From: Ignavibacteriales bacterium
GTDB taxonomy: Bacteria > Bacteroidota > Ignavibacteria > UBA10030
Assembly: GCA_026390595.1 (NCBI GenBank)
Contig: JAPLFQ010000020.1
Location: forward strand, 124,001 to 188,000
Reading direction: 5' to 3'
Length of the DNA stretch: 64,000 bases
Each line of letters opens with the position of its first letter. The stretch's first letter is position 1. The notes below the pieces were generated by a model, which ran no database searches, was not told the origin of the DNA, and worked only from the letters and a program-made list of their open reading frames with translations. A program made the position numbers and the translations under genes. This document shows, piece after piece, positions 3,832 through 20,120 of the stretch.

Positions 3832-3869
3832 GATCATCTCCTTCTTTCCGTATTCAAACCTTGTTCCAG

Positions 3870-4310
3870 CTATTGATGCGCAACGGGCTGGTGAATTTCA
3901 TTGTGCACCGTGAGCTTGAGAGGACCAAGAGTCCGGATCTCTTCCGTCATCTCATTCACGATTGCCGCAAACCTGTCCCCTTCCGATGCGGACACCCATT
4001 CGAGCCGCAAGCGCCGGGGATCAATGCCGAAATCTCTTACCAGCCTCTTCAGGAACGGGATACGCCGGATGGTCTTGTAGTTCCCCTCCTGATAATGGCA
4101 GTCACCGAGATGGCACCCCATGACAATGACCCCGTCCGCCCCAAGTTGAAACGCTTTCAGTATGAAGGCCGGGTCAACCCGCCCGCTGCACATCGTCCGG
4201 ATAACACGGACGTTGGGTGCCGACTTGATGCGCGATACCCCCGCAAGATCTGCGCCGGTATAGGAACACCAGTTGCACAGGAATCCTATGATCTTTGGTT
4301 CAAATGCCAT
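3870..4310 (-). CDS. mvhD: MvhD/FrhD-type [2Fe-2S] electron-transfer subunit
   Basis: A 146-residue protein of the MvhD (FrhD/HdrA-linked delta subunit) family, the [2Fe-2S] link between group 3c hydrogenases and HdrA. The conserved cysteines are in FLCNWCSYTGADLAG near the N-terminus, RTMCSGRVDP (about residue 60) and GCHLGDCHYQEGN. In many relatives MvhD is fused to the C-terminus of HdrA; here it stands alone directly after the NuoG-HdrA hybrid gene. This supports docking of the hydrogenase onto the C-terminal HdrA half. Start is the only sensible ATG; the gap to the upstream gene is 62 bases. Confidence 0.92.
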   Translation of the reverse strand: MAFEPKIIGFLCNWCSYTGADLAGVSRIKSAPNVRVIRTMCSGRVDPAFILKAFQLGADGVIVMGCHLGDCHYQEGNYKTIRRIPFLKRLVRDFGIDPRRLRLEWVSASEGDRFAAIVNEMTEEIRTLGPLKLTVHNEIHQPVAHQ

Positions 4311-4372
4311 AACTCAACACCTTTCCATTGTTCCAGTAATCGACTGCGACCGATCGTGACGGTGACCGGAGA

Positions 4373-6133
4373 TCAGATCATTAATCCATCCAGCTCTGCC
4401 AGTATCTGCGCGTCCGTGAATCCCACCCCGATCATTGCGGACGACGGGCACGCTGCAACACACGTTCCGCACCCCTTGCACAACGCCTCGTTGACGTGCG
4501 ATATTTTCTTATCCTCCAGGAACTCAATGGCACCGTAAGGACAGAGTCCGTTGCACATCTTGCATCCGCTGCAATACTCATCCTGAACCATGGCACGCAC
4601 CGGCTCGATCTCGACCTCTCCCTTGGAGATCAACGACAGGATACGCGCGGCCGCAGAGCTTGCCTGAGCCACGGTGTCGGGGATATCCTTTGGTCCCTGG
4701 GAGCATCCGGCAATGAACACGCCTTCGGTAGCTGTAGAAGTCGGGTCCAGCTTGGGATGACGTTCGAGGAAAAATCCGTCCGGGCTCTTGCTGATCGAAA
4801 ACAGGCGCTTGATCACTCCGCTGTCTTCACGCGGCTCGATTGCATTGCAGAGAATAGCCATATCAACCGGTATCTCCCGGAACTTGCCGATGAGAGTATC
4901 CTCACAACGGATCTTGAGGGAAGGCTCTCCGTTGACGTCCCAGGCCCCTTCGACTATTTCCGCCGCCTTGCCGCGGATCATCGTGATCCCTTCATCGAGC
5001 AGACGGTTGTAGAATTCCTCGTATCCCTTGCCGAATGCGCGCATGTCGATGTAGAACTGATAGATTGCTGCATCGGTGCGATCGCGGACGAGGTGGGCAA
5101 ACTTCAGCGCATACATACAGCAAACACGCGAGCAATACGCGTGATGATTGACGTCCCTTGAACCGATGCAATGAATGATGCCGACCGCCCGGGGCTCTTT
5201 GCCGTTCTTCATCACGACCTTGCCCCCCGTTGGCCCGGTGGAATTGAGGATCGCCTCAAAATCAAGGGAGCTGTACACATTGTCGAGGCGCCCATATCCA
5301 TACTGCGCCATCTTGCCCGCGTCAAAAAGATCGAATCCGGTCGTGAGCAGAACCTGTCCGACCTCGATATCCACGAACTCATCTTCCATCTTGAAGTTGA
5401 TGGCGTTTGGCTCGCACGCTTTCGCACACGTCTCGCACCCGCCGGTCTGGAAATGGATGCATGAGGCCGTGTCGATGACCGGCACTCTCGGGACAGCCTG
5501 GAGTGTCGGGACGTAGATTGGGGTCTTTGGGCCAAGCGTGAATTCCGGTTTCTTCCCGCGATAGTCCTCCAGGACCATCTTCATGTGCCCCGTCGGACAG
5601 ACGTGTACACACGATCCGCAGACAATGCATCGGTCGGATCGCTCATCGAACGGAAGGACCACTTCGCGCTTGATGCCGGTATGCGCGAAGCCCAGCACTC
5701 CCGCTTTCACCACGTCATTGCACATGTTCACACAGTTGCCGCACAGGATGCACGCATCTTCGGCCTCATCACGCTCCAGGCTGACGAACCGCGGCTTCTC
5801 TGCGCCCAATCGCTCCCCCATCTCACGGACAACTTTCACATTCGGCCACCGGGACATCATGAGTTCCATGATGACTTTGCGGAGCCACTTCACTTTGTCC
5901 GAATTCGTCCGGACAGTCATGCCGCCCCGCACCGGGAAGTTGCATGCGGTCACGATGCGGCTGCGTTTTCCCCTGACCACCTCGACACTACAGAGCCGGC
6001 ACACACCATATGGCTCACAGTATTCGCTCTGGCACATCGTGGGGATCCAGACGCCCGCTTTTTCCGCGGCTTTCAGAATAGTGGTGTCTTCGATGACTTC
6101 GACTGATTGTCCATCAATATTGATCGTTACCAT
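4373..6133 (-). CDS. Hybrid NuoG-type ferredoxin domain fused to the C-terminal half of HdrA
   Basis: A 586-residue iron-sulfur flavoprotein made of two unrelated halves. Residues 1-80 are a complex-I/HydA-type [2Fe-2S] domain (Cys 34, 45, 48 and 64). Residues 125-185 carry two [4Fe-4S] motifs (CILCGNCVNMC and CIVCGSCVHVC), as in NuoG/HoxU/HydA. From about residue 205 the sequence is the C-terminal half of HdrA: the cluster CIHFQTGGCETCAKAC, the GPTGGKVV and HCIGSRD motifs, CSRVCCMYALK, DMRAFGKGYEEFY, and the FAD-site segment GVFIAGCSQGPKDIPDTVAQ. Two more [4Fe-4S] motifs follow at 521-562. The HdrA N-terminal Rossmann segment (GxGxxG) is absent and sits in a separate gene at 11134-12003. I infer that it is the electron hub joining NuoEF-like, Mvh and HdrBC subunits. 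Confidence 0.9.
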   Translation of the reverse strand: MVTINIDGQSVEVIEDTTILKAAEKAGVWIPTMCQSEYCEPYGVCRLCSVEVVRGKRSRIVTACNFPVRGGMTVRTNSDKVKWLRKVIMELMMSRWPNVKVVREMGERLGAEKPRFVSLERDEAEDACILCGNCVNMCNDVVKAGVLGFAHTGIKREVVLPFDERSDRCIVCGSCVHVCPTGHMKMVLEDYRGKKPEFTLGPKTPIYVPTLQAVPRVPVIDTASCIHFQTGGCETCAKACEPNAINFKMEDEFVDIEVGQVLLTTGFDLFDAGKMAQYGYGRLDNVYSSLDFEAILNSTGPTGGKVVMKNGKEPRAVGIIHCIGSRDVNHHAYCSRVCCMYALKFAHLVRDRTDAAIYQFYIDMRAFGKGYEEFYNRLLDEGITMIRGKAAEIVEGAWDVNGEPSLKIRCEDTLIGKFREIPVDMAILCNAIEPREDSGVIKRLFSISKSPDGFFLERHPKLDPTSTATEGVFIAGCSQGPKDIPDTVAQASSAAARILSLISKGEVEIEPVRAMVQDEYCSGCKMCNGLCPYGAIEFLEDKKISHVNEALCKGCGTCVAACPSSAMIGVGFTDAQILAELDGLMI

Positions 6134-6147
6134 GGTTTTCTCGCTCG

Positions 6148-7974
6148 TTACTCGACTGAGATTGCATCAAATTTGCAGACATCGTAACAGATACCGCACT
6201 TTCCGCACTTGGCCACATCGATTGTATGGACCTGTTTCGACTCTCCGACGATTGCCCCATCGGGACAGTTCTTTGAGCACACGTGGCAGCCGTGTCCTTT
6301 TTCGACGCACGCGACCGGATCGATCGTGTAGTGAATGAGCTTGCGGCACTCATGACCAGGACATTTCTTCTCCTTTACATGTGCCTCATATTCTTCCCTG
6401 AAGTACTTCAGCGTCGTCAGCACAGGATTCGGGGCTGATCCGCCAAGAGCGCACAGCGAAGACTCAACAACCATATTCGAGAGCTCTTCGAGCAGCACAA
6501 GGTCTTCCTCTGTCCCTTCCCCCACGGTGATCTTCTCGAGAATGTCGAGCATGCGCTTTGTCCCTTCGCGGCACGGGACGCATTTGCCGCACGACTCGGT
6601 CTGCGTGAATGAGAGGAAGTACTTGGCCATATCGACCATGCAGTTGTCTTCGTCGGCCACGACCATTCCGCCGGACCCCATCATCGAGCCCACTTTTGTC
6701 AGCTCTTCGTAGTCGACTGGCAGGTCAAGCAAACTCTCGGGGATGAATCCTCCGGAAGGTCCGCCTGTCTGAACAGCCTTGAATTTCTTTCCGTCTCTTA
6801 TCCCGCCGCCAATGTCGTAGATGATCTTTCTCAACGTAATGCCCATCGGGACTTCGATCAGGCCCGTGTTGTTCACCTTACCCGAGAGCGAAAAGACCTT
6901 GGTTCCTTTGCTGCCTCCCCATGGATCGGCCGTCACGTCTCCCGTTCCAATGCTTGTGAACCATTGCGCTCCGCGCAGGATGATCTGGGGGACGTTCGCC
7001 CACGTCTCAACGTTGTTCAGGCACGTCGGCTTGTCCCAGAGCCCCTTTTCGACCGTATGCACGTACTTGGCCCTCGGCTCGCCGGGACGGCCTTCGATAG
7101 AAGCCATCAATGCCGTCGATTCACCACAGACGAAAGCGCCCGCTCCACGTGCAATCGTGATATCGAAATCGAGATCTTTCTCAAAGATGTTCTTCCCGAG
7201 CAGCCCCGCCTCTCGTGCATGCGTGAGCGCAACCTGCAAACGTTCCAGAGCAATCGGGTACTCATTCCGGATATACACGTATCCATGCTTGGAGCCGACC
7301 GCGTATGCCCCAATCAGCATCCCTTCGATTACAGCATGCGGATCTGATTCAATCGTGCTGCGATCCATAAAAGCACCCGGATCTCCTTCATCGGCATTGC
7401 ACACGATGTAATGGACGTCGCTCGGCATATTCTTGCACGCTTCCCATTTGATGCCGGTAGGGAAACCTCCGCCTCCACGTCCGCGCAGACCGGAGGTCTT
7501 GATTTCGCGTATGACATCATCCGGTGTCATGGTGGTAAGGACTTTCGCAAGCGCTTCGTAGCCACCGCGGGCGATATACTCTTCGATGCTCTCCGGGTTG
7601 ATAATTCCGCGGTTCCGCAAAACAATCGGCATCTGGTCGGCGAAGAATGGGATCTGTGCCATCTTCGGGATCGGTAACTTCGCGTTTGTCGGTGTATACA
7701 TCAACTGCTTGACAGGGCGGCCCTTTATGAAATGCTCCTTCACGAGGTGTGGTATGTCGCTTTCTTTGAGCAACTGATAGAAGATCCCATCGGGTTGGAC
7801 GACCATGAGCGGACCCACTGCACAGAATCCGTTGCAGCCAGTCGTCACCACGCCCACCTCATCCTGCAGCCCCTGTTTGCGGATTTCATCCACCAACTTG
7901 TCCTTGATTTTCATTGATTGGTTGGCAATGCACCCCGTGCCTGCGCACACCATCAAGTACGATCTATACGCCAT
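6148..7974 (-). CDS. NuoF/HydB-like diaphorase subunit (FMN, NAD(P)-binding)
   Basis: A 608-residue subunit with the domain order of HydB of bifurcating hydrogenases. There is a thioredoxin-like [2Fe-2S] domain (GTGCIANQS, TTGCNGFCAVGP; residues 1-95). The NuoF core follows, with FMN and NADH loops (GLRGRGGGGFPTGIKWEACK, NADEGDPGAFMDRS), then an SLBB domain and a [4Fe-4S] site (SCGKCVPCREGT). Two extra C-terminal [4Fe-4S] motifs (CHVCSKNC, CGKCGICYDVC) complete it. It should exchange electrons with NAD(P)H at FMN. The ATG at 7974 has AAAGGAG eight bases upstream. It follows the ferredoxin-like and NuoE-like genes as in hydCB operons, but the expected [FeFe] catalytic HydA is replaced by the NuoG-HdrA hybrid and MvhDGA. 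Confidence 0.93.
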   Translation of the reverse strand: MAYRSYLMVCAGTGCIANQSMKIKDKLVDEIRKQGLQDEVGVVTTGCNGFCAVGPLMVVQPDGIFYQLLKESDIPHLVKEHFIKGRPVKQLMYTPTNAKLPIPKMAQIPFFADQMPIVLRNRGIINPESIEEYIARGGYEALAKVLTTMTPDDVIREIKTSGLRGRGGGGFPTGIKWEACKNMPSDVHYIVCNADEGDPGAFMDRSTIESDPHAVIEGMLIGAYAVGSKHGYVYIRNEYPIALERLQVALTHAREAGLLGKNIFEKDLDFDITIARGAGAFVCGESTALMASIEGRPGEPRAKYVHTVEKGLWDKPTCLNNVETWANVPQIILRGAQWFTSIGTGDVTADPWGGSKGTKVFSLSGKVNNTGLIEVPMGITLRKIIYDIGGGIRDGKKFKAVQTGGPSGGFIPESLLDLPVDYEELTKVGSMMGSGGMVVADEDNCMVDMAKYFLSFTQTESCGKCVPCREGTKRMLDILEKITVGEGTEEDLVLLEELSNMVVESSLCALGGSAPNPVLTTLKYFREEYEAHVKEKKCPGHECRKLIHYTIDPVACVEKGHGCHVCSKNCPDGAIVGESKQVHTIDVAKCGKCGICYDVCKFDAISVE

Positions 7975-8001
7975 GTGAGCGTCTCCTTTGCAGCAGCTGC
8001 T

Positions 8002-8391
8002 TCATGAATGGGTTTTCTCGCTTCGGCGAACGAGAACGTATTCCTTCACAACCTGACCCTTCAGGACGTGTGAATCGAATACCCTTTTCACTTTGTCCGG
8101 TGTGAGAGAAACGTACTTGACAGCCATCGGTTCGCCTTGTATCTCAACGGTCATCATCGGCTCCTGCGCACAGTCTCCTGCGCAGCCGGAATTTGTGACA
8201 ATGACATCATGGAGATGCCGGTCCTCGATTTCAACCATCACCGCTTTCATTATTCCCCTGGCGCCGGCCGCGATCCCGCACGTTCCCGTGTGCACAATCA
8301 TTCTTACGCGGGCCGTTCCGAGGCGAATTGCCGTCTTGTAGCGCGCTTCGTCCCTGATTCTCTCCAAATCAGCAATTGTCATCTTACCCAT
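8002..8391 (-). CDS. Thioredoxin-like [2Fe-2S] ferredoxin
   Basis: A 129-residue protein with a C-terminal thioredoxin-like [2Fe-2S] domain. The ligand cysteines are seen in HTGTCGIAAGARG and NSGCAGDCAQEP. Such small ferredoxin subunits occur between hydC and hydB in many [FeFe] hydrogenase operons, which matches its place here. The open frame continues upstream, but the ATG at 8391 has an AGGAGG site nine bases before it and leaves a 13-base gap from the NuoE-like gene. It probably carries electrons within the diaphorase module. Confidence 0.9.
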   Translation of the reverse strand: MGKMTIADLERIRDEARYKTAIRLGTARVRMIVHTGTCGIAAGARGIMKAVMVEIEDRHLHDVIVTNSGCAGDCAQEPMMTVEIQGEPMAVKYVSLTPDKVKRVFDSHVLKGQVVKEYVLVRRSEKTHS

Positions 8392-8404
8392 CTCTCGATT
8401 CCTC

Positions 8405-8857
8405 CTATTCGTATTGCTTGAGGATTTTTGAAACCTTTGACGCCGGGACTTTTCCGTGAAGGGTTTTCCCGACTGTGATGACCGGAGCGAGACCGCAGCA
8501 TCCAAGACACCGGACGCTTTCGACGCTGAACTTCTTGTCCGGCGTGGTCTCCCCTTCTTTGATGTTCAGTTCGCGCTCGAACTGCTCCATGATTTTGACT
8601 GCTCCCTGAACATAACATGCGGTCCCCGTACACACTGAAATCGGGTGCTTGCCTTTCGGTTTCAAACTGAATGCTTTGTAGAATGTCGCGAGGTTGTATG
8701 TCCGACTCGGGGGCACATCCAGATACACCGAGATATACTTCAACACATCCCGAGGGAGGAAATACAGTTCGTTTTGAATGTCGAGCATAACCTGAATGAT
8801 TGAACTCGGGTGTCTTGGATGTTTCTGAAGTATCGACTCGATGACCTGTGTATCCAT
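8405..8857 (-). CDS. NuoE/HydC-like [2Fe-2S] subunit
   Basis: A 150-residue NuoE-family protein: a helical N-terminus (LPRDVLKYISVYLDVPPSR, TYNLATFYKAF) and a thioredoxin-like [2Fe-2S] domain with CTGTACYVQGA and RCLGCCGLAP supplying four cysteines. In complex I and bifurcating hydrogenases this subunit pairs with NuoF/HydB. The ATG at 8857 has GAGGTG just upstream. The gene lies 14 bases after the HATPase gene and 13 before the ferredoxin gene, so the block is one transcript. Confidence 0.93.
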   Translation of the reverse strand: MDTQVIESILQKHPRHPSSIIQVMLDIQNELYFLPRDVLKYISVYLDVPPSRTYNLATFYKAFSLKPKGKHPISVCTGTACYVQGAVKIMEQFERELNIKEGETTPDKKFSVESVRCLGCCGLAPVITVGKTLHGKVPASKVSKILKQYE

Positions 8858-8871
8858 GGTTCACCTCAGCA

Positions 8872-9438
8872 TTAGTGTATCAGAGAATCTTCTTCCTGGT
8901 TCAGATATCCCCGGATGACCATGCGGGCCTTGACAGACTGAAGCGGATCGCCCGCCAGCTCTTCCCGAATCTCCTTCGAATCGAACACAAATCTTCTTCC
9001 CTCCCGGACGTGGAGAAACACGACATCCACATCTTCGCACGCGGTCACAAGAGCCGTGATCGTATCGGTCATGCTCCCCAAGGGCTTGCGATCCGGATGA
9101 CTTGCCTGAAAAACCGCAGAGACAGTCGTGCCGCGCTCCGGACTCGATGTAATCTCCATCCGACCGTTCGCCTCTTTCGCCGCCTGTTGTAGCAGCGCCA
9201 GGCCCATCCCGGTCGTATGTGCCGGCTTCGTCGTGTAGAAGGGGTCGTCGGCCCTTTGCATTTCCTCCGATCTCATCCCCTTCCCATCGTCCGTCACTTC
9301 GATGTGCAAGAGATCGCCGGGGACGTCCTCCGTCACGGAGATGTGGATGTTCCGCGCTCCTGCCGCGATTGAATTCTCTGCAATATCAAGTATGTGCAAC
9401 GAGAGATCTTCCATAATGTCGTTCGTTTTATCAATCAC
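8872..9438 (-). CDS. HATPase_c (anti-sigma/histidine-kinase-like ATPase) protein of hydrogenase operons
   Basis: A 188-residue soluble protein with a GHKL ATP-binding domain: N box DIAENSIAAGA, G1 box VTDDGKGM, an F-box-like region DPFYTTK, and G2 GMGLALLQQA. There is no dimerisation or phospho-acceptor histidine domain. The C-terminal 60 residues are an unassigned extension. Genes of this kind sit beside DRTGG and [FeFe]-hydrogenase-domain genes in hyd operons of Thermotogae and Clostridia. A role in regulation or assembly is inferred from that context. Its ATG overlaps the stop of the DRTGG gene (ATGA). Confidence 0.85.
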   Translation of the reverse strand: MIDKTNDIMEDLSLHILDIAENSIAAGARNIHISVTEDVPGDLLHIEVTDDGKGMRSEEMQRADDPFYTTKPAHTTGMGLALLQQAAKEANGRMEITSSPERGTTVSAVFQASHPDRKPLGSMTDTITALVTACEDVDVVFLHVREGRRFVFDSKEIREELAGDPLQSVKARMVIRGYLNQEEDSLIH

Positions 9439-9824
9439 GAAATGCCAAGCCGGGCGAGCCCTGCCACTGTCGCGAAGGTGGGCAGACCTGACACCAGCAG
9501 AGCCACGTTATGTTCGGCTGCCATCCGCACTGTATCTGCTTCCGGTTCCCGTCCATGGCTCACGATGATGGCAGCGAGACCTTTCTGAACTGCAACAGCG
9601 ACTGTGTTTGTATGCACCTGCATCGTCACCCATACATCTCCGGACTTGCTATGAGCAATCACGTCGCTCATAAGATCTCCCGCATACCCACCGGTCACCA
9701 CACGCCCCAGCAGGTCCTCACTGCAACAGGCCGTGAGTCGCAGCTGCCGGGCGATTTCCCTAAGCTGAATGGACTCGTCCTTCAATATTGCCACGCACTT
9801 TTCTGTTTTGTTTCCCGACAACAT
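9435..9824 (-). CDS. DRTGG domain protein
   Basis: A protein of up to 129 residues dominated by a DRTGG domain (QLREIARQLRLT, VVTGGYAGDLMSDVI, then HTNTVAVAVQKGLAAIIVSHG). The domain is of unknown function, found in Pta N-termini and as stand-alone proteins in hydrogenase operons next to [FeFe]-domain genes. The start is uncertain. The ATG at 9824 gives a 65-base overlap with the upstream gene, while a GTG at 9794 or TTG at 9785 would shorten this and fit the domain boundary better. Coupled to the next gene by ATGA. Confidence 0.8.
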   Translation of the reverse strand: MLSGNKTEKCVAILKDESIQLREIARQLRLTACCSEDLLGRVVTGGYAGDLMSDVIAHSKSGDVWVTMQVHTNTVAVAVQKGLAAIIVSHGREPEADTVRMAAEHNVALLVSGLPTFATVAGLARLGIS

Positions 9825-11100
9825 CCACGAGATTCGTGGAGAGCGTCTCGAACGTCTTCAACGTGAGAAAGACGCAATCGTCGGTTTCGGCATCCCCCTT
9901 CACAACATCTTCCGCAAACGTCATGCATGTGGGGGCGCCGCAGACACCGCAATCAATTTGCGGCAGCATATCGTAGATCTGATTCCGGCGCTGCATTTTC
10001 TGCAATCCCCGCGAGATATCCTTGTCGAGAGGCTCGACCGGGCTCGGAGCTATTCGGCCGACAAGCGAGAAGAAATCCTTCTGATACAGCTCCCGGATTT
10101 TCTCTCTATCGTCGCACGGCTCCGCACCGTGATCCTGCACCATGCGCAGGACCCTTCCCCGGGCGATGTACGGATTCTCGACATTCAGAGATCCACCGAC
10201 ACATGCTGTCGGGCACGAATGGCATTCGATATACTGAATATCCCTCAGCCTGCCGTTTTCGATCTCGTCAAGAACCCTCATCACGTCCGCCAATCCTGCT
10301 ATCGCGATAGACTCTTCGGCCTTGAGACACGCGACCTGCCCTCCGACGTTTGGCCAGCCAAGGCCGAGCCCGCGAATATCTTTCCTTCCGTTTGTTGCAT
10401 CAGCGTTCGGCAGTGCGCGAAGAACATCCGGGTAGATTTCAGAGATCGGGATCACGCCGTCAAGGAACGAGTGCTTCTTTCTCGGCGGGTTCTTGAGGGC
10501 AGTCATTTTTGCAGGGCAGGGCGCCAGGTAAATCGCTCCAATGTCACTCTCTTTGAGCCCCAGTTCCCGCATTTTCACACGCTTCGCTTCCCTGGCGGCA
10601 ATCTCCATCGGCGATTCTATGGGAATAAGATGATCGAGGAGATTCGGGTATCGGCTCTGAATCAGTCTCACGATAGTCGGGCAGAACGGCGAAATCATCG
10701 GCCGCGGGCTTGGGTTCGTATCCAGATATTCCTGGATCGCGATGCTTACCGATTCCGACGCGCATGTCACATCATAAGCGTCGTCAAATCCGACCGACTT
10801 GAGGGCGTTCAGGATCGCGGCGGGCTTGACATCCTTGCCAAATTGAGAGTAAAAGACCGGAGAAGGCAACGCGATTGTGTACTTGAATGCCGACAGATCA
10901 CTGAAGGAACTTGTCTGCGGCACGATGGCGTGATTCGGACATGCTCTGACGCATTCACCGCAGTCGATGCAGTGATCACTCAGGAGAACTGCTTTCCCTT
11001 CGCGCACGCGGATGGCCTGCGTCGGGCAGACGCGCAGGCATCTCATGCGTCCGGTACACTTCTCTCGATTGATCCGTATTGATCGAAATTCGCTTTTCAT
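9760..11100 (-). CDS. [FeFe]-hydrogenase-like H-cluster domain protein (accessory/sensory type)
   Basis: A 446-residue protein: two N-terminal ferredoxin motifs, a central [FeFe]-hydrogenase large-subunit domain, and a C-terminal [4Fe-4S] 'Fes' domain (IDCGVCGAPTCMTFAEDV). H-cluster cysteines are present as SPFCP (Cys140), APCPAK (Cys195) and SCPTAC (Cys296, Cys300). The proton-relay Cys of the usual TSCCP motif is replaced by Phe139, which argues against ordinary H2 turnover. In the first ferredoxin motif (CTGRMRCLRVC) the second ligand is Arg18. The ATG at 11100 is chosen over an upstream TTG at 11121; no strong ribosome site supports either. It resembles the accessory [FeFe]-domain proteins encoded with DRTGG and HATPase genes. 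The role as sensor or assembly factor is inferred. Confidence 0.85.
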   Translation of the reverse strand: MKSEFRSIRINREKCTGRMRCLRVCPTQAIRVREGKAVLLSDHCIDCGECVRACPNHAIVPQTSSFSDLSAFKYTIALPSPVFYSQFGKDVKPAAILNALKSVGFDDAYDVTCASESVSIAIQEYLDTNPSPRPMISPFCPTIVRLIQSRYPNLLDHLIPIESPMEIAAREAKRVKMRELGLKESDIGAIYLAPCPAKMTALKNPPRKKHSFLDGVIPISEIYPDVLRALPNADATNGRKDIRGLGLGWPNVGGQVACLKAEESIAIAGLADVMRVLDEIENGRLRDIQYIECHSCPTACVGGSLNVENPYIARGRVLRMVQDHGAEPCDDREKIRELYQKDFFSLVGRIAPSPVEPLDKDISRGLQKMQRRNQIYDMLPQIDCGVCGAPTCMTFAEDVVKGDAETDDCVFLTLKTFETLSTNLVDVVGKQNRKVRGNIEGRVHSA

Positions 11101-11133
11101 TCCTGCGTCAGCTGCAAACAAGAGACTATCTAT

Positions 11134-12003
11134 CTATTGGGTCGACTTTTCGTTCACGAGTTTGTCACCAAGCACGATTGACCTGCCGGATGGGATGCGC
11201 GTGGCTGGACAATTACTCCAGCACTGCCCACACCCCGTGCATTTCTCCGTGTCGACATATCGGGCTTTCTTCCGTACCCGGATCTTGAAGTTGCCGATGT
11301 AGCCGGAAACGCTGTCCACCTCCGAGTACGTCAGCAGTGTGATGTCCTTTCGATGTCCCACGGACACCATCTTCGGCGTCAGGATGCAGGCTGCACAATC
11401 CAGCGTCGGGAAGGTCTTGTCGAACTGCCCCATCCTTCCACCGATCGTCGGCTCTTTCTCGACGAGATACACGTGGTGCCCGGCATTCGCGATCTCGAGA
11501 GCGGCCTGAATACCAGCGATGCCCCCTCCGACTATGAGCGTGGCCTTGTTGACCGGCATGCGTGTGATCTGAAGCGGCTCCTGGAGCGCGACTCTGCGCA
11601 CCGCGGCATTGACGAGTGCGATTGCCTTCTTCGTCGCCTGTTCCTTGTCATCGTGGACCCAGGAACAATGCTCACGGATGTTGGCGATCTGAACGAGGTA
11701 CCGGTTCAGCCCGGCGGATTCAGCCGCCATTCTGAACGTCAACTCGTGCATGAGCGGAGAACAGGCCGCTACCACGACCCTGTTGACACCGAGGTTTTTG
11801 ATGTCCTGTTTGATCAGATCCTGGCCCGGATCCGAGCACATGAATTTGTAGTCGCGTGCAATGACCACGTTCGGTTGTTTCGCGATGAAATTGCACACCT
11901 GCGTAACGTTCACTGTGGCGGAGATGTTGACACCGCAGTGGCAAACGTAGACACCAATCTTTATCTGCCCGTTGCCGTTGGTTGGCTTTGCACTCTCATG
12001 CAT
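11134..12003 (-). CDS. N-terminal half of heterodisulfide reductase subunit A (split HdrA)
   Basis: A 289-residue protein that matches only the first half of HdrA (usually about 650 residues). Seen in order: the N-terminal domain with CHCGVNIS and DYKFMCSDPGQDLI, the AACSPLMHE and NIREHCSWVH motifs, then the FAD-binding Rossmann start LIVGGGIAGIQAALE (about 156-170) and EPTIGGRMGQFDKTFPTLDC. A single [4Fe-4S] motif (CTGCGQCWSNC, 255-265) closes it. It then stops; the remainder of HdrA is found in the hybrid at 4373-6133. The ATG at 12003 has GGAGG upstream and overlaps the HdrB stop by eight bases. I infer that both halves assemble into one FAD site. Confidence 0.92.
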   Translation of the reverse strand: MHESAKPTNGNGQIKIGVYVCHCGVNISATVNVTQVCNFIAKQPNVVIARDYKFMCSDPGQDLIKQDIKNLGVNRVVVAACSPLMHELTFRMAAESAGLNRYLVQIANIREHCSWVHDDKEQATKKAIALVNAAVRRVALQEPLQITRMPVNKATLIVGGGIAGIQAALEIANAGHHVYLVEKEPTIGGRMGQFDKTFPTLDCAACILTPKMVSVGHRKDITLLTYSEVDSVSGYIGNFKIRVRKKARYVDTEKCTGCGQCWSNCPATRIPSGRSIVLGDKLVNEKSTQ

Positions 12004-12877
12004 AGTGAGCCTCCGCTAACGATGTTATCTTGCTGCCCAGAGGAATGAACGATGAATCGAGTCCAAGGCTCTTGGACGGAAGACCGAAAGCGATTCCGAG
12101 TAGTTGGGTGAAGTACAGAATGGGGACGTCGAACTTCGTACCGAACGTTTTGTTGATTTTCCCCTGATATGCCTCAAGATTGAAATGACACAGAGGGCAA
12201 GTCGTCACGATGACCTCAGCCCCGCTGTCGGCAGCACATTGCAGCAGGTCTTTATTGAGCTTAAGGGCGGTGTCTTCGAATGTCGTCATCAGCATTCCGC
12301 CGCAGCATCGGACCTTCATCGGGAAATAGACTGACTCGCCCCCGCAGGCGTCAAACATTCTGTCGAGGAGCATCGGATTTTCGCGATCGTCGAATGTCTT
12401 GTCCGGCCGCACGATCTGGCATCCATAATAGGGGGCTATTTTGAGGCCGTTCAGCGTTTGCCGGACACGCCCCCTGATTGCCTCGACTCCGATATCATTC
12501 ATCAGAACATCAACCGGATGACGGACTTTCGAGGTATTGTTGTAACTCAGGCCTCCTTCGGCCAGAGCTTCGTTCACGTCGCGGTGCATCTCGGGGATCT
12601 CTCGGAGGATCCTGTTGGTCTTCAGGAGCACGGTGAAGCACGAGCTGCATGGCGCCAGAATCTCCATTCCCATTTTCTCGGCGATCGCGAGGTTCCTCGC
12701 GGAGACTGCAAGCGATACGGTCTCTTTGACTGACATATACATCGTCGCGCCGCAGCAATTCCAGTCGTCGATCTCGACCAGTTCCTGTCCAAGCGCCTTG
12801 AATACCTCTCTCACCGATTCATCGTAACCTCGCTGCGTTTTTTCAAGGCTGCAGCCGGGATAATACGCGTATTTCAC
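11996..12877 (-). CDS. hdrB: Heterodisulfide reductase subunit B (HdrB)
   Basis: A 293-residue protein with two CCG domains that bind non-cubane [4Fe-4S] clusters: WNCCGATMYM with APCSSCF, and RCCGGMLMTT with TTCPLCHFN. HdrB is the disulfide-reducing subunit in HdrABC; the substrate in a bacterium without CoM/CoB is unknown. Two in-frame GTG codons lie near the start. GTG 12877 is preferred because AAGGAG lies seven bases upstream and it gives the family-typical MKYAYYPGCSL start. It follows HdrC after two bases. Confidence 0.92.
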   Translation of the reverse strand: MKYAYYPGCSLEKTQRGYDESVREVFKALGQELVEIDDWNCCGATMYMSVKETVSLAVSARNLAIAEKMGMEILAPCSSCFTVLLKTNRILREIPEMHRDVNEALAEGGLSYNNTSKVRHPVDVLMNDIGVEAIRGRVRQTLNGLKIAPYYGCQIVRPDKTFDDRENPMLLDRMFDACGGESVYFPMKVRCCGGMLMTTFEDTALKLNKDLLQCAADSGAEVIVTTCPLCHFNLEAYQGKINKTFGTKFDVPILYFTQLLGIAFGLPSKSLGLDSSFIPLGSKITSLAEAHYA

Positions 12878-12879
12878 GG

Positions 12880-13566
12880 TCACTCTCCTTTTTTGGATTC
12901 AAGTTTCATCTCACCGAGCCCTCTGTAGCCAACATATTCGGGTGAGTACTCAAGCTTCTCGGGCAGGTGGCGCATTTCAATTTCCTGCGCTTTCTTGATG
13001 ATGCGTGAAAGCGAGCGGTGGGCTTTGATCCGTTTCGGGAAGAGAGCGAGCCGGTTTGTCCGAAGCATCTTGATACCGAGAGGGACATACGCAAAGAGCT
13101 TGAATATCCCGGTCCTCATGTAGTACAACGCTATCACCGATCCCTCATGGAGCCTCCCGAAGTTCCTGAGGCTGCCGATAAACAGCTTCGCCATCAACTG
13201 CACCTGCGGAGCCTTTGACTTCAGGTTTTTCTCCATTTCCGTTCGCTTGAGCGCATAGATCAAATCCGTAATCTTGATACCCGACGGGCAGCGTGTCGTG
13301 CATGCGTAGCACGACGCACAGATCCAGATGGACCGGCTGTTCATGATCGCCTCCAGCTCACCGGCGCGGTACAGTGCAATCAGCTGACGGGGAGAAATGT
13401 CCATTGCGTAGCTGACCGGGCATGATCCGGTACACGTGCCACACTGGATACAGCGCTTGATTCGCTCACCTGCCGGGACAGCTTCCACGTGTTTCAGGAA
13501 GGCCTGCCTCAGTTCCGCTTCGCTCCGCGACATCAGTCCAGGGAGGTAATTTGAAGTGTGTGCCAT
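12880..13566 (-). CDS. hdrC: Heterodisulfide reductase subunit C (HdrC)
   Basis: A 228-residue iron-sulfur protein with two [4Fe-4S] motifs, CIQCGTCTGSCP (about 39-50) and CASCYACTTRCP (about 83-94), typical of HdrC. The following helical part (LIYALKRTEMEKNLKSKAP onward) is the usual C-terminal domain. It relays electrons from HdrA to HdrB. An 80-base gap separates it from the protease gene; ATG at 13566 with GGAG upstream. The length is slightly above the family's common 180-200 residues because of a basic C-terminal tail. Confidence 0.92.
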   Translation of the reverse strand: MAHTSNYLPGLMSRSEAELRQAFLKHVEAVPAGERIKRCIQCGTCTGSCPVSYAMDISPRQLIALYRAGELEAIMNSRSIWICASCYACTTRCPSGIKITDLIYALKRTEMEKNLKSKAPQVQLMAKLFIGSLRNFGRLHEGSVIALYYMRTGIFKLFAYVPLGIKMLRTNRLALFPKRIKAHRSLSRIIKKAQEIEMRHLPEKLEYSPEYVGYRGLGEMKLESKKGE

Positions 13567-13646
13567 ACATGCTCCGTCGTCGTCAAATGGTGACTAGTGT
13601 CTCGATTCACGAGTTGCTCGAGTCAGTCCGGGTTCTGGAAAGCAGG

Positions 13647-14255
13647 TCACGGCTCGAATTGACCAACTATTGCCATCCGATCCTTGCAACCGTCTCTGGG
13701 ACTCGACACAAGGTGATCGATGACCTGCCACTCTCCGGCATGAACCGGGGAGTCCATTCCATCCGCTTGTATATCATTGAAGATAAGATCGACTAGCGTT
13801 GGTATCGCTTTTGCGACCTCTGCCGTGCAAGCGTCACGAAAGGTGGTAGTATCAGAAACCTCGATTCCATAGACCGTAAGTTTGTCGGGAAGCGCTGCTC
13901 CCAGGAGTTTTGCAAGAGCGAGCACCTGGCCAAGGTCGATCTGGTGGGACGAGGCAAGCTTCAGAGGTTCCTGATCGGGCAGCTGGATGAACCGATACAG
14001 GGTTCCTGCGGGTTGATTTCCTGAGGTGATCGCGTCCACAATAATGCGTTCCCCACATCCGACCACAAAGTCCAGGAGCTCGAGCCCCCCTACCGCAATT
14101 TCCTCGTATGTTATGAAGTCATCTGTGAGCCGTTTCTTCAGTTCTTGAACAACTCTGATCCCCACTCCATCATCTGAGAGCAATTCATTGCCCAGACCAA
14201 TTATCGTCAGGGGCTTTCGATGGGGTGATCGGTCGGGATTAGTCAAAGCGGACAT
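13647..14255 (-). CDS. Hydrogenase maturation protease for the group 3c enzyme
   Basis: A 202-residue HoxW/HycI/HyaD-family endopeptidase that trims the C-terminus of the [NiFe] large subunit after nickel insertion. The nickel-sensing motif GNELLSDDGVG (about 22-32) is intact; downstream IIVDAITSG and SSHQIDLGQVLAL also fit the family. It lies two bases behind the MarR-like gene and ahead of hdrC, so the operon carries its own maturation factor for the MvhA subunit at the far end. The tail after IFNDIQ is longer than in most relatives. Confidence 0.9.
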   Translation of the reverse strand: MSALTNPDRSPHRKPLTIIGLGNELLSDDGVGIRVVQELKKRLTDDFITYEEIAVGGLELLDFVVGCGERIIVDAITSGNQPAGTLYRFIQLPDQEPLKLASSHQIDLGQVLALAKLLGAALPDKLTVYGIEVSDTTTFRDACTAEVAKAIPTLVDLIFNDIQADGMDSPVHAGEWQVIDHLVSSPRDGCKDRMAIVGQFEP

Positions 14256-14743: not shown

Positions 14744-15239
14744 CGGAATTCTCAACGAATTCGAAGATTCCCATTCTTGACCCTGGTGAATAATCATACA
14801 CTCATATAGAAACCCCACACATTCTTACATGTCTCAATAAGACTACAGATTCTTGCTGACGGGAGAGTTCCTTCTTTCAGGAACTCTCCCGCACAGGCAA
14901 TCGAGTGCGTAAGAAGATCACAAGAAGTTGGAACTAATTCCGTACGATGCCGGAAGCATGTTGTTCAATTACCGCGACTCTCTGCACACGGAAATTGCAT
15001 TCTCAATTCTCTGAATCGATAACATCGTTGTTTGCTGAACTCGCGCGCATCACTTTTGGGAAACGAGTCAACATCATGATACCGTCCAACATCCCGCGCA
15101 CGATTCGATGAAATCGAATTTGTAAAGGTCGCCCGTTTTCAACATATTGATGCACGCATGCCAACAGACGTGCACAGAACCTACGCACTCACGGGCGCAC
15201 GTAGGTGCAGCTTCAAGTATTCGGAATGAGTATCATCCT
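14744..15239. other. Divergent intergenic region between marR-like and histidine kinase genes
   Basis: About 500 bases that should contain the promoters of both divergent transcription units. Apart from the operator at its left edge and the perfect hairpin at 14860-14891, I see no recognisable gene or convincing promoter. The kinase frame stays open upstream to about 15147, but that stretch does not look coding. Confidence 0.4.
14860..14891. other. Perfect 12-bp hairpin in the divergent intergenic region
   Basis: CGGGAGAGTTCC (14860-14871) and GGAACTCTCCCG (14880-14891) form a perfect stem around an eight-base loop. No T-run follows on either strand, and the flanking genes diverge, so it is not an ordinary terminator. 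It could be a 5' leader structure, a protein-binding site or the terminator of a small RNA. Confidence 0.55.
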
Positions 15240-17219
15240 GTGAAGACGATTCAGTCGCAACTCATCCTCGCATTTTCCATTGCAATTCTTGTCCCGGCCC
15301 TTGTTACCGGCTATGTCGGAATGCGGATCATTACCGATCAGGTTATCACGCGAGCCGAGACAAAAACGATTTCCGACCTCAACTCCGCACGCGAACTTTA
15401 TCGTAACAAGATTTCCGAAATCCACAGTATCACGCGCCTCACGGCACTCCGCAAACTTGTCCGTGCCGCCGTTCTTAACCGGGACCACGCGTTTCTTTCA
15501 AAGGACTTTCGATCTATCCTCGAGCGTGAGAAGCTGGACATTTTGTCTGTCACTGACGCACGCGGCACTGTGATCGCCCGTGGCCGCAATCCTGCCCTCT
15601 ATGGAGACATCATACTCGAAGATCGGTTCATCGAACGTGTGCTCCGAACGCGTCAGCCTGTGAGCGGCACCGATCTCCTTACGAGGGACATGCTCGTCAA
15701 AGCCTCGCCGGACCTTGCCGCCAATGCGCTTATGGATATTATCCCGACACCCAAGGCGAAGGAGCGCAAGGACCGCCAGGAGACTTCCGGCATGATGCTC
15801 GCATCCGCCGTGCCGGTCTTCGATGACAACGACCATTTCCTGGGTGCGATCATCGGCGGCGTCCTTCTGAATCGGAACTTCGAGATCGTCGACAAGATCA
15901 AAGAAATTGTTCACGAAGGTCAAATCTACCAGGGAAAGGAAATAGGCACTGCGACGATCTTTCAGGGTGATCTTCGCATTTCAACAAATGTCAGGAACGC
16001 TGACGGGAGCCGGGCGCTCGGAACGCTTGTCTCGAGTGAGGTGTATGATGCCGTGCTCAGAGAAGGCAAACGCTGGGTGGGAGAAGCCTTTGTCGTCAAC
16101 GCCACCTATATCACCGCGTACGAGCCGATTCGAGATCTGATGGGGAATATCATCGGAATGCTCTACGTCGGAGTCCTGAAACAGCCGTTCGACGACGTCC
16201 TGCAGCGAACCCTCGTCACATTTCTTGGGATCGCGTTCCTGGGAATCATTCTGATTGTCCTAGCGTCGATATTCCTGGCGCGCCGTATTTCACGCCCGCT
16301 GCGCCAACTCGAGGAAATCTCCAAACAGATTGCTGAGGGAGACTACAAACACGATTTCACGGCCAAAGGCCCCAGCGAGATCGAGCACCTTGGCCGCTCG
16401 CTGAACGTAATGTCAAGACAATTGGAGACTGAGAAACGCGAGCTTGAGGAATGGGGTGCAACCTTGGAGAAAAAGGTCGCCGAACGCGCAGATGAAATGA
16501 AGAAGATCAACTCCCAACTCTTCCGATCTGAAAAGCTGGCGTCCCTTGGCAAGCTGGCAGCGGGAGTCGCCCACGAAATTAACAACCCGTTGACCGGAAT
16601 TCTCACGAACAGCAGTCTTCTGCTGGAGGACCTCCCTGCCGATGATCCCAGGCGAGAAGACGTGGAGGTCATGGTACACGAAACAATCCGATGCCGGGAG
16701 ATCGTAAAGCGGCTGCTCGATTTTGCCCGTCAGACAAAGCCGCAAACGCGCCTTGCCAGTATCAATACGCTTATCGAGAACATCATCCTGCTCGTCCGGA
16801 ATCAGGCGTCATTCAGGAACATTCTTATTGAGAAGAATCTCCACGGAGACATGCCCGACATTCATGTTGATCCGGATCAGATCCAACAGGTGTTTGTAAA
16901 TATCATCCTGAATGCCGCCGAGGCAATGACAAAAGGAGGCGTCCTCACGATCTCTTCGACCATGTCACCCCAACGGGATAGTCTCATTGTCAGCATCGCC
17001 GACACAGGGCCCGGCATTTCGGAAGAAGTTCGCGAACTCATCTTCGATCCTTTCTACACGACAAAAGAACATGGAACCGGTCTTGGACTTTCCATCAGCT
17101 ACGGAATCGTTGAGCAACACGGTGGAACGATAACCGTGGAGAGCACCATAGGGAAGGGATCGGTCTTCGTCATCCAACTCCCCGTCCAGACAAGCGAAGG
17201 GAATGGACATACGGCATGA
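15240..17219 (+). CDS. Membrane sensor histidine kinase (Cache-type sensor, HAMP, HisKA, HATPase)
   Basis: A 659-residue kinase: TM1 (LILAFSIAILVPALVTGYVG), an extracytoplasmic Cache-like sensor of about 280 residues, and TM2 (FLGIAFLGIILIVLASIFL). A HAMP domain (RRISRPLRQLEEISKQI) and a coiled coil follow, then HisKA with the phospho-acceptor in GVAHEINNPLTGI. A C-terminal HATPase_c completes it (NIILNAAEAM N box, DTGPGI G1, HGTGLGLSIS G2). The proposed start is GTG 15240, immediately before the first membrane helix. Upstream TTG/ATG codons near 15147 would add a tail unlike the family. It overlaps the response-regulator gene by ATGA, so the two form a pair. The signal is unknown; its position next to the hydrogenase operon suggests redox or H2-related sensing. 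Confidence 0.88.
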   Translation: MKTIQSQLILAFSIAILVPALVTGYVGMRIITDQVITRAETKTISDLNSARELYRNKISEIHSITRLTALRKLVRAAVLNRDHAFLSKDFRSILEREKLDILSVTDARGTVIARGRNPALYGDIILEDRFIERVLRTRQPVSGTDLLTRDMLVKASPDLAANALMDIIPTPKAKERKDRQETSGMMLASAVPVFDDNDHFLGAIIGGVLLNRNFEIVDKIKEIVHEGQIYQGKEIGTATIFQGDLRISTNVRNADGSRALGTLVSSEVYDAVLREGKRWVGEAFVVNATYITAYEPIRDLMGNIIGMLYVGVLKQPFDDVLQRTLVTFLGIAFLGIILIVLASIFLARRISRPLRQLEEISKQIAEGDYKHDFTAKGPSEIEHLGRSLNVMSRQLETEKRELEEWGATLEKKVAERADEMKKINSQLFRSEKLASLGKLAAGVAHEINNPLTGILTNSSLLLEDLPADDPRREDVEVMVHETIRCREIVKRLLDFARQTKPQTRLASINTLIENIILLVRNQASFRNILIEKNLHGDMPDIHVDPDQIQQVFVNIILNAAEAMTKGGVLTISSTMSPQRDSLIVSIADTGPGISEEVRELIFDPFYTTKEHGTGLGLSISYGIVEQHGGTITVESTIGKGSVFVIQLPVQTSEGNGHTA

Positions 17220-18616
17220 GCTCGCATATTCTGATTGTTGACGACGAAATCGTGATCTGCAAAAGCTGCGAAAAAGTGTTCCGGCGTTCAGGGCACACCG
17301 CCGCGATTGCCACGTCCGGCCGCGAAGCGCTGTCGATGCTGGAATCGGAAAGCTTCGATGTCGTCTTCACAGATCTCAAGATGATGGACATGGGAGGATT
17401 GCAGGTACTGCAAACAGTCAGAGAGAAATACCCGTCCACTGTCGTCGTGATTATCACCGGTTATGCGACAATAGCCTCAGCCGTGGAGACGATGAGATCT
17501 GGAGCGTTCGACTTCCTCCCGAAGCCGTTCACCGCCGGCGAGCTGCTTGCTGTTCTCGATAGAGCATTGGAGAGAAGAAAACTCCTCAAGATGTCAGAAC
17601 CGGGATTCGCATACGTTGAGTCAGGAGGCTTCGAAGGTCTGATCGGTTCCAGTGCCGCGATGAAAGAAGTCTACGGCTTGATCCAGAAGGTTGGGCCGAC
17701 GGACAGCACGGTGCTCATTATCGGTGAAAGCGGTACGGGAAAAGACCTGACAGCGAAAGCAATCCACGAGCGAAGCAAGCGAAAGGCTGCGAAGTTCTTT
17801 GCCATCGACATTTCAACGCTCTCAAGCACGCTCTTGGAGAGCGAGCTGTTCGGACACGTTAAGGGCTCTTTTACCGGCGCGACGGTTGACAGGGCGGGGG
17901 TCTTTGAGGTCGCAAACGAGGGGACAATTTTCCTGGATGAAATCGGGAATCTCTCGATGGAAACCCAGGCCCGCCTGCTCCGGGTTCTGCAGGAGAAGGA
18001 GTTCATCCCCGTCGGAAGCACGACGGTCCGCAAGGTCGATCTGCGGCTGATATTTGCGACAAACCAAAACCTTAGACAACTCGTCAGTGAAGGGAAGTTC
18101 AGAGAGGACCTCTACTATCGGCTGAACGTGTTCCCGCTCCGCCTCCCTCCTCTGAGGGAGCGACGCGAAGATATTCCCGAGCTTGTCGTACATTTTCTGA
18201 AGAAATTCTGTTCTGCCATCAGCCGATCCATACCGCACGTACGCGCAGAGGCAATGGAGTTGTTGATGGACTACCACTGGCCGGGCAATGTCCGGGAGCT
18301 CGAACACGCCATCGAGCGGCTGACAATTCTTGTCGAAGGAGATGAAATCGAGCCAGTACACATTTCGGCCGCTCTCTATCGCACCGACTCTTCTCTTCGC
18401 TCAATGATTCCGAAGACGAGCGATGAGCTCAAGGAGCTTAAGAAGAAAATACGAGAGTCATCTGTCCAGGAAGTTGAAAAGCTCTTCATCGAAGAGTCTC
18501 TCGTACGAAACAACTGGAACGTATCGAAGGCTGCACGCGAAGCAAACATGCAGCGGTCGAATTTCCAGGCGTTGATGAGAAAATACCACATCAAGAGGCA
18601 CGCCCCGCCCGCATAA
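17216..18616 (+). CDS. NtrC-family sigma-54-dependent response regulator
   Basis: A 466-residue activator: receiver domain (phospho-acceptor Asp in VVFTDLKMM, Lys in PKPFTAG), then an AAA+ sigma-54 interaction domain with Walker A GESGTGKD and Walker B GTIFLDEIG. The sigma-54 contact loop reads GSFTGA rather than GAFTGA, and the arginine-finger region is RLNVFPLRLPPLRER. The C-terminal Fis-type helix-turn-helix ends NNWNVSKAAREANMQRSNFQ. It is translationally coupled to the kinase. A strong sigma-54 promoter lies 200 bases downstream, in front of the next gene, and is its obvious candidate target. Confidence 0.92.
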   Translation: MSSHILIVDDEIVICKSCEKVFRRSGHTAAIATSGREALSMLESESFDVVFTDLKMMDMGGLQVLQTVREKYPSTVVVIITGYATIASAVETMRSGAFDFLPKPFTAGELLAVLDRALERRKLLKMSEPGFAYVESGGFEGLIGSSAAMKEVYGLIQKVGPTDSTVLIIGESGTGKDLTAKAIHERSKRKAAKFFAIDISTLSSTLLESELFGHVKGSFTGATVDRAGVFEVANEGTIFLDEIGNLSMETQARLLRVLQEKEFIPVGSTTVRKVDLRLIFATNQNLRQLVSEGKFREDLYYRLNVFPLRLPPLRERREDIPELVVHFLKKFCSAISRSIPHVRAEAMELLMDYHWPGNVRELEHAIERLTILVEGDEIEPVHISAALYRTDSSLRSMIPKTSDELKELKKKIRESSVQEVEKLFIEESLVRNNWNVSKAAREANMQRSNFQALMRKYHIKRHAPPA

Positions 18617-18813
18617 CTGATTGTGCACCTGTGTATTTCTACTATGCACCCCTCGGCGGGCACAATCCCTCATTTTAGCAGTAATTCAAAGATCCCAGGC
18701 AGACGGCGGGCTTTCAGCTGCCCAAGCATCGGAAATTCACTCAATCGCTGATATCCTCACTAAGTTGTGACACATGAAGGTATTACCGCCCCGGCACCTC
18801 CATCAATCACTGA

Positions 18814-18829
18814 TGGCACGCGGCTTGCT
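18814..18829 (+). promoter_or_regulatory. Sigma-54 promoter (-24/-12)
   Basis: TGGCACGCGGCTTGCT matches the sigma-54 consensus TGGCACG-N4-TTGCW at every defined position, with correct GG-to-GC spacing. It points towards the dual-receiver gene, whose ATG lies 57 bases further on. A small palindrome TGTGACACA lies at 18766-18774 and an inverted repeat ATTGTGC/GCACAAT at 18620/18660. Either could be an enhancer site, but this is a weak suggestion. Confidence 0.8.
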
Positions 18830-18886: not shown

Positions 18887-20059
18887 ATGATTACCCAAAA
18901 AATACTCGTAGTCGATGACGAAGAGAATGTTTGTCAGAGCATCAAGAAAGTCCTTTCCCGTAAGGGATACAACATTTCCCAGGCCTTCACGGTCGATGAT
19001 GCGGTAAAACTCATCAAAGAGATGACGTTTGATCTCGTCATCACCGATATGATGATTCCAGGGACAAGCGGATTGGAGCTGCTCCAGATCATCAGAGACG
19101 ATTATCCGGAGCTCGAAGTCATCATGATCACCGGGTATGCTTCGATCGAGTCGGCGGTCAAAGCAACAAAGCTTGGGGCGTCGGCCTATCTCCCGAAACC
19201 CTTCACGCCTGATGAGCTGACCAAGGTTACCGAGAAAACACTGGCTGCAAGAGTGACGAGCGCAAGAAGGAAAGCCTCTGAAGTCCCGGAACAGCAAGAA
19301 GGCGAGATCGAGGAAGGCAATATCGACATCGATATGCCCTTCAATGCCCGGGAAGTTGCGAAGCAGACGTCCAGGGAATACGTTGAGACGCTGACACATA
19401 CGGATGTTCCGTTGCCCAAGAAGGGCGCGGCGAAGGAGTATTGCTTCCTGGGACAACGTGAGTGCAGAAAACTCGTTCTGGACGGTAAAGAGTGTGCAGG
19501 TGAGTGCCCGATTCTCAAGAAGGAAAAGGCACGGGCGTCAAAGTCAACGAGTGTCAGAACGCTTTCGAACGACATCATCGATGTGGATCTCCCCTTCAAC
19601 CTTGCTGAAGTGGAGCGGATAACCGGTTCGGACTACATCAATTGTCTCACGCGATCGGATATTCCGCTTGCGGGTTTGTACGGCAAAGACCCCAACGCCA
19701 AGTATTCCGTGCTTGTAGTGGATGATGAACCAATCGTTTGCCATAGTATCCGCAAGATCCTCTCGAAGCAGAGCTGTGCGGTCGAAGAAGCCTTCGACGT
19801 CGACTCTGCAATGCTGAAACTGAAGATCCAGTCATACGACCTGGTGCTCCTCGATCTCAAGATGCCGAAACGCAGCGGGATGGAAGTCCTCAAATCCATC
19901 CGGACTCAGTATCCTGACGTGCCGGTCATCATGGTCACCGGCCATGGTACGATTGAGACCGCAATCGAGGCGACGAAGTTCGGAGCCTTCGATTTCATTC
20001 CAAAACCGTTCACGCCACAGGAACTGACAAAGGTCGCTGTCGAGGCCCTTGCAGCCTGA
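18887..20059 (+). CDS. Dual-receiver response regulator with duplicated linker motif and four-cysteine spacer
   Basis: A 390-residue soluble protein with receiver domains at both ends (1-122 and about 272-390). Both have the acidic pocket, phospho-acceptor Asp (54 and 323) and conserved Lys (KPFTP). There is no DNA-binding or enzymatic output domain. The linker holds two copies of a 30-residue motif, residues 146-176 and 230-261. Their shared pattern is D-[IV]-D-[ML]-P-F-N-x2-E-V-x3-T-x3-Y-x3-LT-x-[ST]-D-[IV]-P-L. They flank a four-cysteine segment (Cys 186, 193, 203 and 207) that could hold Zn or an Fe-S cluster. I do not recognise the motif. Expression appears to depend on sigma-54 and hence on the preceding activator. 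Confidence 0.85.
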   Translation: MITQKILVVDDEENVCQSIKKVLSRKGYNISQAFTVDDAVKLIKEMTFDLVITDMMIPGTSGLELLQIIRDDYPELEVIMITGYASIESAVKATKLGASAYLPKPFTPDELTKVTEKTLAARVTSARRKASEVPEQQEGEIEEGNIDIDMPFNAREVAKQTSREYVETLTHTDVPLPKKGAAKEYCFLGQRECRKLVLDGKECAGECPILKKEKARASKSTSVRTLSNDIIDVDLPFNLAEVERITGSDYINCLTRSDIPLAGLYGKDPNAKYSVLVVDDEPIVCHSIRKILSKQSCAVEEAFDVDSAMLKLKIQSYDLVLLDLKMPKRSGMEVLKSIRTQYPDVPVIMVTGHGTIETAIEATKFGAFDFIPKPFTPQELTKVAVEALAA

Positions 20060-20076: not shown

Positions 20077-20120
20077 AAGGGGTGAGTTCCTCGAGCATAG
20101 CGCTCCTGAACTCACCCCTT
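20077..20120. terminator. Bidirectional terminator between convergent genes
   Basis: AAGGGGTGAGTTC (20077-20089) pairs perfectly with GAACTCACCCCTT (20108-20120) across an 18-base loop. A T-containing tract (GTTATTT) follows on the plus strand. It lies between the dual-receiver gene and the convergent VirK-like gene and can serve both. Confidence 0.75.

Follow-up and report, generated by a model that had tools for sequence, protein, structure and literature searches.

A dual-receiver protein with a conserved four-cysteine linker beside a kinase-activator pair and an Hdr/hydrogenase gene cluster in Ignavibacteria

In Myxococcus xanthus, FrzZ is a dual CheY-like response regulator whose two receivers come without an output domain (PMC4618731). 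Receivers that serve as phosphate sinks or in feedback are known as well; examples are the phosphate-sink models (PMC4214558) and a response-regulator-like protein that acts back on CckA (PMC9430884). Known electron-bifurcating complexes include NiFe-HydABCSL and HdrABC/Mvh (PMC8880783). Here we analyzed a 64,000-nucleotide stretch of Ignavibacteriales DNA (the window) that encodes a dual-receiver protein, dREC, close to Hdr and hydrogenase genes. The features of the locus are collected in Table 1.

Table 1. Positions of dREC, its parts, and its neighbors in the window
Feature	Position	Strand	Description
Electron-transfer gene cluster	1406..14255	-	Divergent from dREC; gene content from sequence
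Cache-HAMP-HisKA-HATPase sensor histidine kinase	15147..17219	+	Domain content; adjoins activator and dREC
NtrC-type sigma54 activator	17216..18616	+	REC, AAA+ with GSFTGA loop, Fis-type HTH
Candidate activator site	18622..18648	+	TGTGCACCTGTGTATTTCTACTATGCA; about 165-190 nt upstream of promoter
Sigma54 -24/-12 promoter element	18814..18829	+	TGGCACGCGGCTTGCT; 73 nt before dREC ATG
dREC (dual-receiver protein)	18887..20059	+	390 aa, no output domain; translation and Pfam
Receiver domain 1	18893..19240	+	About residues 3-118
Linker motif, copy 1	19322..19414	+	Residues 146-176; IDIDMPFNAREVAKQTSREYVETLTHTDVPL
Four-cysteine module	19436..19528	+	About residues 184-214; C186, C193, C203, C207
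Linker motif, copy 2	19577..19669	+	Residues 231-261; IDVDLPFNLAEVERITGSDYINCLTRSDIPL
Receiver domain 2	19700..20050	+	About residues 272-388
Hairpin 3' of dREC stop	20077..20120	+	RNA fold z-score -6.2

A preliminary description of this DNA had called dREC a protein without an output domain, and two Response_reg domains were indeed its sole Pfam matches at cut-off. Both receivers contain the acid pocket DD, the phospho-acceptor Asp, the Thr/Ser, and the Lys of a phosphorylatable receiver. As a conservation set, we used 27 full-length relatives from Ignavibacteria and Acidobacteriota, among which D10, D11, D54, T82, and K104 of receiver 1 and D279, D280, D323, and K373 of receiver 2 were invariant. 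Because the catalytic residues are invariant, both receivers should be phospho-competent. AlphaFold modeled both of them well from a full-length alignment of 20 sequences.

The linker between the receivers had been described beforehand as holding two related motifs around four cysteines and as not recognized as a named domain. Each of these points held. Aligned without gaps, the two motif copies are identical at 15 of 31 residues (48%) and similar at 22 of 31, and one half of the linker scored 91 against the other in a local comparison, far above the maximum of 45 in 2,000 shuffles. The translation places the cysteines at the positions reported, in the arrangement Cys186-x6-Cys193-x9-Cys203-x3-Cys207 between the two copies. 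Profile searches of Pfam, NCBIfam, and the PDB with the linker gave insignificant matches only, with no significant Fe-S family and no ferredoxin-type domain among them; one member of the linker family weakly resembles Fer4_20 (E 0.016, not significant). A match to a known domain of other function and variation of the cysteines among relatives had been named in advance as possible refutations; the libraries searched gave no such match, and the cysteines proved to be conserved in two phyla.

Both motif copies and the four module cysteines are kept in all 27 relatives, and cysteines elsewhere in dREC vary. The spacing C-x6-C-x9-C-x3-C is found in 20 of the 27, with x6/x8/x4 in four and x6/x8/x3 in three. 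Within residues 140 to 270, 20 positions are invariant, including D147, D149, P151, F152, T161, S162, L169, and D173 of motif 1 and D232, D234, P236, F237, Y250, D258, and P260 of motif 2. Mean identity to the window protein over the same relatives was 0.63 for motif 1, 0.62 for the cysteine module, and 0.64 for motif 2, values that stand beside 0.66 and 0.65 for the receivers and 0.16 and 0.26 for the spacers flanking the module. Because its motifs and cysteines are conserved and no library entry matches it, the linker is, as judged from its sequence, a genuine conserved module undescribed in the libraries searched. It thus represents a domain unmatched in the Pfam and NCBIfam versions used and conserved in two phyla.

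When the linker alone served as the query, 15 of 61 near genomes proved to have it; across the order, it is present in 17 of 98 genomes, and in Acidobacteriota it is present in 8 of 297 sampled genomes. That sample was chosen from the phylum label of a single locus in a named scan, which returned 21 linker loci, mostly labeled Ignavibacteria/Ignavibacteriae or Bacteroidetes and one labeled Acidobacteria. Other proteins with the DVD[ML]PF motif were sought in 11 genomes, and the ten extra matches read (G529:C119 and G054:C225 are excluded from this reading) were discarded as short, unrelated, or antisense-looking open reading frames without the remainder of the motif.

Next to dREC, the order Cache kinase, NtrC-type activator, dREC was found in nearly all Ignavibacteria loci with upstream sequence, a count that leaves out two loci in which the dREC gene is broken (L042 and L044). 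In L042 (about 7000-8600, G001:C96), a cut dREC gene runs into a VhuA-like gene in antisense orientation, which probably reflects a chimeric assembly. Of the eight Acidobacteriota loci, three (L082, L085, and L086) share the kinase-activator-dREC order; in four (L081, L084, L087, and L092), dREC has neither kinase nor activator as a neighbor, and L083 ends at a contig edge. In L027 (1194-4304) and L034 (1020-4142), the first pair has a second, more distant kinase/NtrC-like pair close by.

The receivers of dREC are also related to that of the activator. Among the best 30 of about 112 receivers of the same genome, those of dREC ranked as the two most similar to the NtrC-type activator's receiver, both over the whole domain and over helix alpha1, the partner-specificity region of receivers. 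In a tree, the two dREC receivers grouped with the NtrC receivers (support 0.945), and their clade held one intruder from the same genome. Since the dREC receivers are the closest kin of the activator's receiver, these comparisons suggest that they likely share a kinase with the activator. The intruder (locus L142, G000:C20:91600-91932) lies outside the window; there, a receiver precedes a region that resembles, by eye, a GcvH-like (lipoyl-type) domain, and another open reading frame of this kind adjoins it.

In its promoter, dREC has the sequence features of a sigma54 gene, with a TGGCAC-N5-TTGCW element and an activator encoded nearby. The promoter element was the sole exact match to its pattern in the window, and ten shuffles gave one match in total. 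A TGGCA[CT] element was found at the same position in all 20 dREC promoters compared, one of them from Acidobacteriota; several of the 20 are degenerate at -12, and that of L029 is weak. Farther upstream, a TGTGCA/TATGCA pair is conserved in near relatives, and its pattern matches the window once; its position makes it a candidate activator site. TGTATA-N6-TATACA palindromes, for which the chance expectation is almost none, lie upstream of the dREC promoter in L038 (three), L039 (three), and L040 (two), and L038 and L039 have another between dREC and the Hdr operon. At about 10870-10910 of L038, such a site is followed, by eye, by a Bacteroidota-type promoter look-alike (TTG...TAnnTTTG) before the Hdr operon.

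Downstream, the hairpin after the dREC stop is a probable terminator; it has a weak T-run and went unlisted in the consensus terminator scan. Because this strong hairpin follows the stop, the sequence suggests that dREC is transcribed as a single-gene unit. An Rfam search of the region found no RNA element. Its promoter and neighbors make dREC look like a gene that the adjacent kinase-activator pair switches on through sigma54. Upstream of the window's own Hdr operon, there is no good sigma54 site, and for that reason joint regulation of dREC with that operon is only suggested. The D. vulgaris sigma54 regulome paper does not mention control of Hdr or hydrogenase.

The cluster divergent from dREC encodes a Vhu-type NiFe hydrogenase, NuoF, NuoE, a split HdrA, an Fe-hydrogenase-like protein, HdrB, HdrC, and a maturation protease, genes that confirm the hydrogenase/Hdr neighborhood proposed beforehand. 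HdrA is split between 11134-12003 and 4373-6133: one gene covers HdrA2 profile positions 1 to 256, and in the other part, a NuoG-like 2Fe-2S N terminus is fused to positions 240 to 638. Two further genes of the cluster (8872-9438 and 9760-11121) encode a stand-alone, kinase-like HATPase and an Fe-hydrogenase-large-C protein that carries an Fe-S domain at its C terminus. In Acidobacteriota locus L082, a divergent Hdr/Fe-hydrogenase-like cluster lies beside dREC as it does in the window. In the order, HdrB of at least 72% identity occurs in 11 of 17 genomes with dREC versus 0 of 81 others (Fisher p 1e-10), and in Acidobacteriota, HdrB at E <1e-60 occurs in all eight genomes with dREC versus 20 of 289 others (Fisher p 2e-9), with both p values ignoring the shared ancestry of the genomes. 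Close HdrB is absent in 6 of the 17; two of these (G015 and G058) have an HdrB of 46 to 48% identity on the same contig, and the remaining ones may be incomplete genomes. Co-occurrence is also seen where dREC does not adjoin HdrB. Genomic association with Hdr or hydrogenase genes, the check that had been proposed, was thus found both in the neighborhoods and in the presence/absence statistics.

We tentatively favor, with somewhat less than even confidence, a role for dREC as a connector target of the kinase-activator pair that shares its phosphoryl groups, with a four-cysteine module that probably holds a metal or cluster. Going by domain content, the Cache-domain kinase would sense an extracytoplasmic signal and phosphorylate the NtrC-type activator, which, judging by sequence and conservation, would drive dREC transcription from its own sigma54 promoter. 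The same kinase most likely supplies phosphoryl groups to both dREC receivers, because they are kin to the activator's receiver and have kept the phosphorylation residues. dREC could then act as negative feedback or as a phosphate sink, or it could pass its phosphorylation state to a partner. The preliminary description had proposed a phosphorelay adaptor; a connector or feedback role is favored over an intermediate relay step because dREC looks like a sigma54 output and its receivers are kin to the activator's. However, the four Acidobacteriota loci in which dREC has no kinase or activator neighbors speak against the connector or sink role, as does the conserved linker, which phosphate sinks do not need.

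The linker would contribute to this connector role through its two DVDMPF-helix-helix motifs, which flank a four-cysteine site whose ligand is probably Zn or an Fe-S cluster. Most likely, the linker sets the packing of the receivers or binds a partner from the Hdr/hydrogenase system, and should the site hold an Fe-S cluster, the connector would respond to redox state. A short module with four invariant cysteines could hold Zn or an Fe-S cluster or could serve thiol chemistry. With AlphaFold, a confident linker fold was not obtained either from the full protein (20 sequences; linker pLDDT of about 40 to 60) or from the linker alone (23 sequences; pTM 0.21), and it is therefore from conservation that we take the module to bind probably a metal or cluster. 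In these low-confidence models, two short helices come after DVDMPF in each motif copy.

A structural zinc module is a possible alternative to which we give a substantial minority of our belief. Here, a Cys4-Zn2+ site would lock the motif copies as a docking scaffold for the receivers or a partner, without redox sensing. The module is small, with four cysteines in Lys/Arg-rich surroundings and short predicted helices, all of which are typical of zinc-stabilized mini-domains. However, the usual CxxC knuckles are absent, and the profile searches returned no zinc-finger family at a significant E value.

The same cysteines could instead form a redox-gated phosphorelay adaptor, in which the state of an Fe-S center decides whether phosphoryl groups pass between the receivers or are retained on them, and which would tune hydrogenase/Hdr expression to match ferredoxin or H2 status. 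The invariance of the four cysteines, with a CxxxC-Pro end that we take to be reminiscent of ferredoxin-type ligands, and the tight link of dREC to an anaerobic electron-transfer cluster agree with this adaptor. The lack of a ferredoxin or cluster family match in Pfam, NCBIfam, and the PDB, where Fer4_20 was insignificant, argues against it, and the variable x8/9 and x3/4 spacings also fit Zn. On this evidence, we consider a redox-gated adaptor unlikely.

We also hold it unlikely that dREC works as an output in the manner of FrzZ, with the phosphorylated protein binding a target, such as a subunit of the Hdr/hydrogenase complex, through its linker motifs and controlling the target's activity or placement. 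The two receivers without an output domain, the resemblance of a duplicated motif with invariant D-x-D-x-P-F to a binding element, and the co-occurrence with HdrB even at a distance all point toward such an output. Against it, the motif occurs in no other protein among the matches read from the 11 genomes. Another idea, which seems to us distinctly unlikely, is that the linker is a new small sensory domain in which the DVDMPF copies clasp a metal or Fe-S center on the four cysteines between the receivers, so that dREC would read both its phosphorylation by a kinase that senses the envelope and the redox state inside the cell, and would adjust hydrogenase/Hdr metabolism of the electron-bifurcating type. 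Finally, a disordered linker under weak constraint with incidental cysteines is highly improbable: the low AlphaFold confidence would suit it, but it is contradicted by motifs and a cysteine module that are conserved at the level of the receivers in two phyla, with 20 invariant residues, when the spacers are not.

How, then, does dREC compare with described systems? The upstream genes of its locus are of the NtrC/AtoC type, and its receivers are close kin of the activator's; in contrast to members of that family, dREC has no AAA+ or HTH domain and is a third component of the locus. Like sink and feedback receivers, dREC has no DNA output and may either compete for the kinase or feed back on it, but the literature searched held no example of two receivers with a cysteine module between them. 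Among the products of the associated operon are NuoF/NuoE-like, HdrA/B/C-like, and Vhu-type subunits resembling those of NiFe-HydABCSL and HdrABC/Mvh; dREC itself is by sequence no subunit and is tied to them by neighborhood and co-occurrence. Our literature search did not find the dREC architecture, two receivers with a four-cysteine linker, described. Dual receivers without an output are already known, and what is new to the libraries and literature searched is a conserved, probably metal-binding module between them. If that module gates phosphotransfer by redox state or metal, two-component signaling would be linked directly to electron bifurcation in uncultured anaerobes. Like FrzZ, dREC has two REC domains and no other recognized domain. 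FrzZ serves a chemosensory pathway, whereas dREC, which looks like a sigma54 target, sits beside a Cache-HisKA kinase and an NtrC-type regulator, and the conserved neighbors of the loci do not mark dREC as the output of a CheA-type chemosensory system. Its linker, with motifs and four cysteines that match no family searched, may further set it apart from FrzZ. We file dREC as a variant of the dual-receiver kind and not as a FrzZ.
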